In this document: one piece after another, positions 113 to 61,830 of the stretch
How positions within the stretch are numbered: the first letter of the stretch is position 1
Layout of the letters: each line of letters opens with the position of its first letter
Source of the DNA: an uncultured Kordiimonas sp.
GTDB lineage: Bacteria; Pseudomonadota; Alphaproteobacteria; Sphingomonadales; Kordiimonadaceae
Assembly (NCBI GenBank): GCA_947503625.1
Contig: CANNEK010000003.1
Span: forward strand, 744,001-808,000
Direction of reading: 5' to 3'
Length of the DNA: 64,000 bases
Program-made: the position numbers and the translations under genes
Notes under the pieces: model-generated
What the model saw: only the letters and a program-made list of their open reading frames with translations
Told to the model about the DNA's origin: nothing
Database searches by the model: none

Positions 113-532
113 ATGACCAAGATTCAGTTTGCTGACCGATCAGACAGAACCGCCATTGAAACCGGTAATGGTTTTGCACCCAAGTTTGACGAGCGGGGCC
201 TGATCCCCGTGTTCACCAGTTGTGCCAAATCCGGCAAGGCACTGATGCAAGCCTGGATGAACGCTGAAGCAATCGAGAAAACAATCGAAACCGGGCAGGC
301 GCATTATTTCAGCCGGTCACGTGGTGAACTATGGCACAAGGGCGCAACATCTGGCGAATTCCAGATTGTGAAGCAGTTTCGCATTGATTGTGATCAGGAC
401 AGCTTGTGGCTGGTGGTAGAACAAAAGGGCGGTAAATGCTGCCATGTGGGACATGAAACCTGTTTTTTCCGGGAAATACCGGTCGGGCCCGGCGCCATCA
501 CAGACGGCAGGATAACACTGAAAACCAGATAG
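113..532 (+). CDS. hisI: Phosphoribosyl-AMP cyclohydrolase HisI
   Basis: Third step of histidine biosynthesis: opens the adenine ring of phosphoribosyl-AMP to give the ProFAR precursor; cytosolic, zinc and magnesium dependent. The protein is about 139 aa, normal for the monofunctional HisI domain with no HisE fused. Visible signatures are AWMN, the SRSRGELWHKGATSG block, the metal-binding DCDQD stretch, and two cysteine-bearing segments (GGKCCHVG and ETCFFR) that match the zinc-binding CH and SCFYR motifs. There are two in-frame ATGs at 107 and 113; a GGAA at 102-105 is better spaced for 113, which I chose. It stands alone here, away from other his genes, as is common for hisI in Alphaproteobacteria. 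A short hairpin overlaps its stop codon (531-545). Confidence 0.95.
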   Translation: MTKIQFADRSDRTAIETGNGFAPKFDERGLIPVFTSCAKSGKALMQAWMNAEAIEKTIETGQAHYFSRSRGELWHKGATSGEFQIVKQFRIDCDQDSLWLVVEQKGGKCCHVGHETCFFREIPVGPGAITDGRITLKTR

Positions 533-58298: not shown

Positions 58299-59882
58299 AT
58301 GAACACGGTAACACAGGTTCTGTTGCTGATTTCCTATGCGATTTTCGGGATCGCAGCCGCCATGTTTCTGCCGATGCTGGGTATTACGCCCTCAACGGCA
58401 CAACTGATTGGCGCTCTGGTTTTCGTCTCCATCTGGCAAATTCAATTGTCTTTCTTTGGCAAAGGCAACGATGACATCGATATGATTGATATGCACCGGG
58501 TGGACGAAATAGAGCAGCTGACGCTTAAGCTCAGGAAAGAGGTCACTGCCCTTAAAGAGAGTGTCGACGAGCAGTCCGAAAAGGGCGATGCCAAAGACAA
58601 GAAACTCGTCAATGAATTAAAAACGCTGCAAGAATTTCTGATTCAGGTCATGCAGAAGGAAAGCGGGAAAAAAGGCGGCAGGAAGCCTGCAGGCAAAACT
58701 TTGGCCGACAAGGCCTCTGATGGTCAGGCCGACAAAGTGACCGCCGGCGGAATTGAAAAACCGGGATTGGCGGCCGATGGAGCTGCTTTGGTTGCCGCCG
58801 AAGAAGAACAGGATCAGGAAGTTGCATCTGAACTGGACATTGCCGAGGGCGACGTTGAAAACTTCGATAGTGACGAAGACCTTGACGAATTGGACAGTGC
58901 AGACGGCCCGGATCTTCCTGATGAACCCGGTAAACCCGATGACAGCAGCCTTGAAGGATTGCCGTCACCGCAACCGAACACAGTGAACACACCGACAATA
59001 GCAGCAGCCAGCAAGCCCTCTGCAAGAGCAATAGGAACTCCGGCTGCGAAGGCTCCAGACCCCTCGAGAATGAAAACGCACGCACAGCGCAGAGCCGAGG
59101 CCGCAAAAAAACGAGCCCCTATCCGGCTGATAAAACGCGAAGACCAGTTGCTTTCCGTTATCAAGAGTTCCTTGTCTGAAAACCGGGTAGACCTGTATTT
59201 GCAGCCAATGGTGTCGCTACCGTCACGCAAAGCCGCACACTTCGAGTGTTTCTCCCGCGTCAGAGACGAGGAAGGCCGCGTAGTTCTTCCGCGCCAGTAT
59301 ATGAAAGTGGCAGAAACCAAAGGCCTGATTGGCACGATTGACAACTTGCTCATGTTCAGGCTGATCCAGCTGGTACGTCGACTGGGTCGACGGCGTCCGG
59401 ACGTGCGCTTTTTTCTGAATATGTCGCGCTATTCCATCGCAGACGAAGAATTCCTGCCTCAGTTTATCGATTTTATGGTGTCAAACCCCGAGTTTGCCGA
59501 ACGCATTGTTTTTGAAATATCGCAGGAAGACTACCTGACCCTTGAAGACGAAACCGTTGAACGACTACACACACTGGGGCGTAAAGGGTTTGCTTTCTCA
59601 ATGGACCTGTTTACTGATTTTGATCAGGACTTTGCCGAGCTGGAAAAACGTAATTTCAAATACATCAAGGCAGACATGACGGATATCTTGGAAACCAACC
59701 CGGAGCCCGGTGACATTGAAGAGCAAAAAGCCTATCTGCGCCGTAGGGGAATGCAGTTGATCGCCAGCAAGATCGAAACCGAAGATATGGTAATTGAAGC
59801 GCTGGACAATCAGATTGAGCTTGCACAAGGCTACCTGTTTGGCGAACCTCTTGCCGCAGAAGAAATCGATACCGACCTATAG
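58299..59882 (+). CDS. tipF: TipF-like protein: two membrane helices, acidic linker, degenerate EAL domain
   Basis: A 527-aa protein: two N-terminal helices (about residues 6-28 and 34-53), a coiled coil (70-120), a long acidic linker (to about 240), and a C-terminal EAL-fold domain (about 280-520). Several catalytic residues are altered: EAL reads ECF, the DDFGTG motif reads MDLFTD, the second acid of ITE reads SQ, and AEGVE reads ASKIE; the Asn, Lys-x-Asp and QGYLF motifs remain. This matches TipF, a c-di-GMP receptor for flagellar placement in Caulobacter, and predicts binding without hydrolysis. cheY/cheZ lie close by. Confidence 0.75.
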   Translation: MNTVTQVLLLISYAIFGIAAAMFLPMLGITPSTAQLIGALVFVSIWQIQLSFFGKGNDDIDMIDMHRVDEIEQLTLKLRKEVTALKESVDEQSEKGDAKDKKLVNELKTLQEFLIQVMQKESGKKGGRKPAGKTLADKASDGQADKVTAGGIEKPGLAADGAALVAAEEEQDQEVASELDIAEGDVENFDSDEDLDELDSADGPDLPDEPGKPDDSSLEGLPSPQPNTVNTPTIAAASKPSARAIGTPAAKAPDPSRMKTHAQRRAEAAKKRAPIRLIKREDQLLSVIKSSLSENRVDLYLQPMVSLPSRKAAHFECFSRVRDEEGRVVLPRQYMKVAETKGLIGTIDNLLMFRLIQLVRRLGRRRPDVRFFLNMSRYSIADEEFLPQFIDFMVSNPEFAERIVFEISQEDYLTLEDETVERLHTLGRKGFAFSMDLFTDFDQDFAELEKRNFKYIKADMTDILETNPEPGDIEEQKAYLRRRGMQLIASKIETEDMVIEALDNQIELAQGYLFGEPLAAEEIDTDL

Positions 59883-60822: not shown

Positions 60823-61830
60823 CTAGCCAAACAGCGCGTCAATATCGTCCTGACTAACTTCGCCGCCGGACGGCAGTTCGACTTCTTCTTTCGCCGCTTT
60901 TTGTTCCGGCTTTTTATCCTCGTCAGTCTTTTCTGCTGCTTCTGCCTCCGCTTTTTTCTTTTCTTCCAGTTCTGCAACTGGATCGAAATCTTCAGAGAAC
61001 ATCGCATCCAGTTCGGCCGGACTTACGGCTTTCGGAGCTTCGACCTTGGGTTCCGGCTTCTTTTGTGGTTTTGGCGCAGCCTTGGGTGGGGGAGCAGGTT
61101 CTGGGGCAGGTTCTGGCGCAGGCGCTGCTGCCGGCTCCTGCGGTGCGGGAGCGGGTGCAGCTGGCGTCGCAGACGGCTCAGCAGCGGGCGTTCCTCCCCC
61201 CATCAATTCATCCACCTCATTCTGGTCGATACCTTCACCATCCAGCGCAGGGCCGGAAAGCAAAGCTTCATCGCCTTTCGGCTGATCATCGTCCATCGCT
61301 TCCTGGATGTCTTCTTCGGTGACCCCCATGAGGCTCCTGAGTTCAAGAACCCGTTCCTCAATATGAGACAGCGTCTGCACCACCTTGGAAATACGTTGAC
61401 CAGTAATATCCTGAAACGAGCATGCCTCAAAAATGCGCATCACAGCATCCATGGTGGTTGCCTGATACGCTTCATGGTCTTCCGTATCGGCACCCATGAT
61501 TTCTTCGGCAGCCTCCATAATGGTATTGGTTGCTTCTTCCGTCTGCTGAACAATGGCATCAAGTTCCAGTCCAGCACGTGGTATTCTGGCGCTTTCCAGA
61601 TCAACAGGTTGCAGGGACGCAATCTCTTTTCTGGCGTTAGTGATATAATCACTAAGCGCTCGGCATTCCCGGTAGATCGACGTGTCGATTGACTTGTAAA
61701 ACACGTTCATTGTGCCGATCAGCACCTCGGTAACCGAGGCAACATCTGTCAACGACAAGGCTGCCGTATTCTGCTTGCGCAGATTATCGACCAATAATTC
61801 GATCTGTTTGGAAAGACCGCTGTCTACCAT
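60823..61830 (-). CDS. cheZ: CheZ-family CheY-phosphate phosphatase with a motif-rich disordered tail
   Basis: A 335-aa protein. The helical core (residues 1-170) has the CheZ active site CSFQDITGQRISKVV, in which Asp141 and Gln145 match the catalytic pair of E. coli CheZ. From about 172 the chain is disordered, rich in Pro, Ala and Glu. It carries three similar short motifs: IDQNEVDELM (201-210), VSPAELDAMF (269-278) and VSQDDIDALF (325-334, the very end). They resemble the CheY-binding N-terminus of FliM (LSQAEIDALL). So the tail probably docks phosphorylated CheY. It overlaps cheY (TAATG) on the minus strand. Confidence 0.88.
   Translation of the reverse strand: MVDSGLSKQIELLVDNLRKQNTAALSLTDVASVTEVLIGTMNVFYKSIDTSIYRECRALSDYITNARKEIASLQPVDLESARIPRAGLELDAIVQQTEEATNTIMEAAEEIMGADTEDHEAYQATTMDAVMRIFEACSFQDITGQRISKVVQTLSHIEERVLELRSLMGVTEEDIQEAMDDDQPKGDEALLSGPALDGEGIDQNEVDELMGGGTPAAEPSATPAAPAPAPQEPAAAPAPEPAPEPAPPPKAAPKPQKKPEPKVEAPKAVSPAELDAMFSEDFDPVAELEEKKKAEAEAAEKTDEDKKPEQKAAKEEVELPSGGEVSQDDIDALFG

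Follow-up and report, generated by a model that had tools for sequence, protein, structure and literature searches.

Repeated FliM-like docking motifs in the extended tail of an alphaproteobacterial CheZ

The long cheZ gene in the window, the whole stretch of 64,000 nucleotides that was analysed, probably encodes a CheZ phosphatase whose extended C-terminus gives each subunit more than one tether for phosphorylated CheY (CheY-P). Three FliM-like peptides, here motifs 1, 2 and 3, are spaced along its tail, and they are unequal. Motifs 1 and 3 match known docking peptides strongly, while motif 2 is a divergent, family-specific candidate site, weak by similarity. Motif 1 aligns with the CheY-binding peptide that closes E. 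coli CheZ (1kmi chain Z); it is the docking site that CheZ normally has and no extra one, so the novelty is the tail extension and not three new sites. An earlier, sequence-only reading of a three-site tail thus stands to the extent that motif 3 and the divergent motif 2 are additions, and falls short for motif 1, the counterpart of the E. coli peptide.

The long CheZ and its tail

The three peptides are in frame in a single CheZ ORF on the minus strand, where the sequence-only reading had placed them (Table 1). The product scores 40.3 bits (E 4.2e-10) with the profile PF04344, for which the curated cut-off is 30.7, and can be aligned with E. coli CheZ in 1kmi chain Z up to residue 209. With NCBIfam NF008368 it scores 33.8 bits, below the cut-off of 257, and so it is a CheZ but no E. 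coli-type equivalog. D141 and Q145 of the catalytic segment are matched to positions 143 and 147 of the 1kmi chain, the DxxxQ pair, and both are invariant in alignments of 21 and of 49 sequences, the window CheZ included. The gene comes from a marine, Kordiimonas-like alphaproteobacterium, and the closest named relatives are from Kordiimonas and Kordiimonadaceae. The 125 residues that follow motif 1 are an added extension, apparently disordered, which holds motifs 2 and 3. The family set consists of 28 long CheZ tails from Kordiimonadaceae, the window's included, with the truncated CheZ of G022 (L057) left out; in the 27 where the linkers could be measured, the first is 30-68 aa and the second 38-65 aa long.

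Table 1. Features of the cheY-cheZ pair, in window positions and CheZ residues
Feature	CheZ residues	Window positions	Strand	Basis or remark
cheY, E. coli-like, 128 residues		61830..62216	minus	directly upstream of cheZ
cheZ (long type), 335 aa		60823..61830	minus	PF04344 match and alignment to 1kmi chain Z
Catalytic FQDITGQ	139-145		minus	D141, Q145
Motif 1, IDQNEVDELM	201-210	61201..61230	minus	14.5 bits; AF2 helix 203-210
Linker 1, Pro/Ala-rich	211-268	61027..61200	minus	no predicted secondary structure
Motif 2, VSPAELDAMF	269-278	60997-61026	minus	third-best profile position of the tail
Motif 2 block, VSPAELDAMFSEDFDP	269-284	60979..61026	minus	AF2 helix 271-279; 4.7 bits
Linker 2, Lys/Glu/Ala-rich, charged	285-324	60859..60978	minus	AF2 helix 284-300, then low-confidence coil
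Motif 3, VSQDDIDALF	325-334	60829..60858	minus	22.1 bits; AF2 helix 327-334

An AlphaFold2 (AF2) run on the window CheZ with 48 orthologues (mean pLDDT 73, pTM 0.37) predicted short helices at all three motifs, with the linkers mostly at low confidence. A further tail helix, 284-300, is outside the motifs, and so helices by themselves mark no docking site. With regard to the four-helix bundle typical of the CheZ dimer, the monomer model shows long helices, and its comparison with solved structures gave generic helical bundles (best Z 8.3), with 1KMI absent among the matches listed; as long helices match many proteins, this comparison is uninformative.

Elsewhere in the window, positions 58299-59882 of the plus strand encode an EAL-domain protein, with, by eye, hydrophobic segments near the N-terminus and a long acidic Pro/Asp-rich region ahead of the EAL domain.

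Scores of the motifs

The main profile spans 10 residues and was trained on docking peptides from outside the extended tails, namely 5 distinct peptides from FliM of relatives, 19 distinct ones among 30 non-alphaproteobacterial CheZ ends, and 14 distinct ones from short CheZ paralogues. On it motifs 3, 1 and 2 outscore every other position of the tail, with 22.1, 14.5 and 4.7 bits, and the next position is at -5.8; a FliM example peptide has 26.6 bits. The third-best score was never 4.7 or higher in 20,000 shuffles of the tail. With shuffles of the extension only, the second-best score reaches 4.7 with P 0.0001 and the best position is as high as motif 2 with P 0.015. A scan of all six-frame, stop-to-stop frames of at least 100 aa in the window (38,281 aa) ranks motif 3 first, motif 1 second and motif 2 15th, and for motif 2 this window-wide score is at chance level. 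Because of that rank, and of its -4.5 bits on a stricter profile trained on FliM and non-alphaproteobacterial CheZ only, motif 2 is by score a poor FliM match. The possibility of three equal copies was rejected for these reasons, and of the three docking motifs originally proposed two are strong and one is weak. Chance or low complexity as the origin of motifs 1 and 3 was rejected on the shuffles and on the counts of extended tails given below.

Across the genome a DNA pattern for [DE][IV]DA[LFM], run without its last N, is present at 36 places as against 8 for the reversed control. Thirty of the 36 were examined as loci, and in five of these (L097, L111, L115, L120 and L122, the window CheZ) the motif is at most 10 residues from the end of the frame. 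Among the 30 loci, no protein but the window CheZ has Ser-Gln preceding a terminal [DE][IV]DA[LFM].

Contacts and conservation

FliM residues in contact with E. coli CheY include L6, Q8, I11, D12 and L14 (PMC3774744). Equivalents of all five are present in motif 1 (anchors V206, D207, L209 and M210, with Q203 at FliM Gln position 8) and in motif 3 (anchors I330, D331, L333 and F334, with Q327 at that position). In motif 2 the anchors, hydrophobic and Asp, are retained (L274, D275, M277 and F278), but Pro stands in place of the CheY-contacting Gln. The acidic residue before its Leu-Asp, which the pattern proposed for the three peptides demands, is present in 4 and lost from 23 of the 27 family sequences with the block. 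The hydrophobic-Asp pair is common to all three CheZ motifs. In Caulobacter the FliM peptide WASERILNQDEIDSLLG, to which the FliM motif of the relatives is near-identical, shifted NMR signals of CleD, a CheY-like protein, in the presence of c-di-GMP, whereas the peptide with Ile-Asp changed to Trp-Ala did not (PMC5677366).

Motif 3 lies 114 residues past motif 1 and stops one residue short of the C-terminus. The terminal VSQDDIDALF plus one residue is present in 27 of the 28 family tails, the remaining one having VSQEDIDALF, and throughout the family it is consistently distinct from motif 1 (SQDDIDALF as against IxQxxVDxL[ML]). In codon comparisons with the window gene, where synonymous differences are near saturation, pN/pS is 0.011 for motif 3 (27/27 orthologues) as against 0.115 for the catalytic core (23/27 usable), and it is 0.213 for motif 1 (27/27) and 0.201 for the motif 2 block (25/27 usable); by this measure motif 3 is under stronger constraint than the catalytic core. 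Conservation in orthologues, which had been named beforehand as a point on which the proposal could fail, was found for motifs 1 and 3.

For motif 2 the conserved unit is the longer block V-x4-LD-x-MF-x-ED-[FY]-DP, kept in 27 of the 28 family tails, the window's included. Its extra invariant EDxDP is absent from the FliM peptides recovered, and among the tails inspected motif 2 has this form only in Kordiimonadaceae. It is this conservation, together with the predicted helix, that argues for motif 2 as a candidate site.

Partner proteins in the genome

The stop codon of the upstream cheY and the start of cheZ overlap by one base, 61830, and the closest solved structures to this CheY are those of enteric CheY (E ~1e-41). 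Of the 78 named loci with enough flank, 75 have a cheY no more than about 0.5 kb upstream of their long cheZ, the exceptions being L194, L195 and L203. S90, K91, T92, V95, K99, Y106 and V108 are present in 76 of 76 CheYs beside long cheZ genes, and K119 in 75, so that the likely docking face of the neighbouring CheY is nearly invariant across these loci. In E. coli, K122 of CheY contacts FliM, and FliM Q8 contacts CheY V108 (PMC3774744). Ala or Ser replaces K122 in 74 of the 76, and positions 92 and 99 are likewise unlike E. coli CheY, differences that count against CheY capture by the tail. The proposal that FliM-like docking motifs are repeated in the Pro/Ala-rich CheZ tail is supported, and the CheY beside it has a conserved docking face.

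FliM of the relatives was recovered at 29 of 30 loci (L346 excepted), each with one VLDQxEIDxLL in its N-terminal part, and the docking peptide of the genome's own FliM is VLDQDEIDSLLG. Separately, ahead of the docking motif, FliM in this genome and in relatives carries an acidic N-terminal extension in which an A-E-W-E-A-M-A-like block occurs twice (L004 on contig 4, L330, L331, L339, L340, L347-L349 and L351-L353), which adds another repeated linear motif to the switch complex.

In total, CheA is encoded once in the genome, CheZ twice and stand-alone CheY at least twice. The sole cheA is in an operon read by eye as cheR-cheB-cheY-cheW-cheA, on the same contig as the cheY-cheZ pair and about 515 kb from it. 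Its CheY is 37% identical to the window CheY, and face positions 90-92 are, by eye, Asn-Asp-Met in the operon CheY as against Ser-Lys-Thr in the window CheY. The second CheZ, a short paralogue of 216 aa on contig 4, is encoded near fliM, ends in NSQDEIDAIL and is without the extension. Around it, near 314759-317480 of contig 4, the genes look flagellar by eye, with a fliL-like gene before fliM and a MotB-like one after cheZ.

Extended tails in other Alphaproteobacteria

The survey comprised 203 distinct closed CheZ tails from a set of relatives, a named set and a class set. The class loci were 60, every second match among the matches listed without a locus, together with 29 from the same search. 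Dropped from the count were tails that were open or very short (2 loci in the relatives set, 3 in the named set and 2 in the class set), L094 and L288, whose core was not recognisable, and 47 tails identical to another, since the named set overlaps the unnamed one. A tail is termed extended if it has more than 90 residues past FQDxTGQ, a cut chosen once the tails had been seen.

Two strong motifs are present in 89 of the 112 distinct extended alphaproteobacterial tails sampled, three in 8, four in 7 and one in 8, so that 104 have at least two; 109 terminate in a motif. The expectation from shuffles is about 1.6 motifs over all 112 combined. The 91 short tails have one motif in 85 cases, two in 4 and none in 2, and each of the 30 non-alphaproteobacterial CheZs, which were the best-scoring of their search and hence the most E. 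coli-like, has exactly one, at its terminus. The tail count depends on threshold and training set: as the threshold goes from 14 to 6, the number of the 112 tails with at least two motifs rises from 86 to 109 on the full profile and from 25 to 107 on the strict one. At the threshold of the main count (10.4) the strict profile finds them in 69 of the 112, and it leaves 16 of the 91 short tails without their single motif. With regard to repeat number, the commonest complement of the extended tails sampled is two strong sites, with three or four in 15 tails. The textbook one-peptide CheZ is thus not the sole common form in this class.

The arrangements are varied. The tail of L183 has ASQDDIDALF three times plus a proximal site, L273 has four sites, and in L204, L215 and L216 two motifs are only 3 residues apart; across tails, the spacing from first to last motif is 3 to 214 residues. 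Weaker terminal motifs, DAIDAMF and DTIDAIF, close the extended tails of L264 and L267, and in L267 a GIDFDSV segment is repeated, possibly another repeated element. The CheZ tail of L059 / L199 ends in Asp-Ala-Val repeats running to the contig end, perhaps an assembly or repeat artefact.

In a quick tree of 135 rows the multi-motif tails are in two regions, with 11 label changes as against a shuffled mean of about 42. In a tree of 52 rows, single-motif rows separate a clade A of 17 rows, the window CheZ among them (support 100/100), from a clade B of 10 rows (99/97); the genome's short paralogue is in a clade apart from the long CheZ. The 52 rows are a chosen subset, without L282 and the single-labelled rows of clades A and B, among others. 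One joint multi-motif clade is rejected with an AU p of 0.014, a value that is indicative since the groups were named from the 135-row tree and single-labelled rows were omitted. The simplest reading is two gains of multi-motif tails, keeping in mind that counts by themselves cannot separate gain from loss.

What the extra motifs may do

In the sequence the ordinary peptide, motif 1, is just behind the catalytic helices, with a variable linker next and the near-invariant motif 3 closing the protein, and in Kordiimonadaceae the divergent motif 2 is between them. Each peptide would fold into a short amphipathic helix that sits on the alpha4-beta5-alpha5 surface of CheY-P, where FliM also binds. 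FliM and CheZ peptides share a single CheY face (PMC3774744), so one CheY should hold one motif at a time, and as CheY-P would take only one peptide, extra copies would give no tighter grip on one CheY. The copies may instead allow several CheY-P to be bound to a CheZ dimer simultaneously, make it likelier that a released CheY-P is caught again close to the active site, and put CheZ in competition with FliM for CheY-P. From the sequences we infer multivalent capture of CheY-P or competition with FliM.

A different partner for the distal motifs is the alternative that survives best, unlikely as it is. Motif 1 would then serve the neighbouring CheY, and motif 3 (and 2) another CheY-like receiver, such as the cheA operon's CheY or the receiver on CheA, with the tail recruiting or insulating and not multiplying capture. 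A second stand-alone CheY is indeed present in that distant operon, motif 3 consistently differs from motif 1, the conservation of motif 3 would look identical if its partner were another receiver, and Caulobacter has several CheY-like proteins sharing the FliM docking motif (PMC5677366, PMC7534056). However, the operon CheY has its Asn-Asp-Met just where the CheYs beside long CheZs are nearly invariant, and three copies of SQDDIDALF, as in L183, would be odd for separate addresses.

It is also conceivable, with still lower probability, that competition or buffering is the tail's main role, its distal motifs sequestering CheY-P from FliM with dephosphorylation little changed. The closeness of motif 3 to the FliM motif and its distance from motif 1 would suit such a role, and the single-motif paralogue encoded near fliM could do the ordinary job. 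Yet the active site can still be within reach of flexible tethers this long, and distant storage makes little sense for L204, L215 and L216 with their closely set motifs.

That the distal motifs are localisation or stability signals which resemble docking peptides and do not bind CheY is very improbable. Azorhizobium CheZ does have localisation determinants outside its docking peptide, but these are in the N-terminal helix and beside the catalytic motif (PMC7750401); the invariant EDxDP of motif 2, missing from FliM peptides, would fit such a signal, whereas motif 3 has 22 bits on the docking profile, near the FliM example. Chance or a low-complexity artefact has practically no probability left, for although the tail is biased in composition and motif 2 alone could be chance (P 0.015), the shuffles, the conservation and the two separate clades all tell against it.

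To return to extended CheZ tails as multiple tethers for CheY-P, a broader reading, which is tentative and on balance doubtful, is that Alphaproteobacteria at least twice made CheZ a multivalent CheY-P trap with 2-4 motifs per subunit (up to 8 per dimer), a cooperative phosphatase by which the signal is sharpened or buffered according to motif number. If that were true, motif number would be a dial changed repeatedly by evolution. E. coli CheZ is reported to be cooperative on CheY-P, with CheZ oligomerisation as the cause disputed (PMC2673030), and extra sites could strengthen such cooperativity. Natural tails form a series in which the motifs number one to four and span 3-214 residues, and this offers a test of motif number and of tether length as causes of cooperativity and signal sharpness.

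Comparison with known systems

Among the matches listed in open-licence PMC (titles and abstract starts), no description of repeated docking motifs in CheZ was found, and the string DDIDALF is in no open-licence PMC paper searched. The CheZ of Azorhizobium caulinodans (236 aa) has the same catalytic motif and an AxxFQ (ACSFQ in the window CheZ) but one C-terminal helix, residues 225-236, and the excerpt of PMC7750401 mentions no extension. CheZ of E. coli and Salmonella (PF04344, 1KMI) shares with the window CheZ the catalytic DxxxQ and one CheY-binding peptide past a linker, which corresponds to motif 1. Whereas the 30 CheZs sampled from outside the class stop just past this peptide, the window CheZ adds its 125 residues and, with them, one strong and one divergent motif. 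The short paralogue on contig 4 shares the catalytic core and ends in a docking motif, its only one, but differs in having no extension, in its location near fliM and in its clade. With the FliM docking motif LSQxEIDxLL all three CheZ motifs share the hydrophobic-x4-hydrophobic-Asp-x-hydrophobic-hydrophobic anchors, and motifs 1 and 3 its Gln as well. In FliM, however, the motif is a single N-terminal copy (29 FliMs) and its role is in motor switching, while in the window CheZ it recurs at the C-terminus of a phosphatase.
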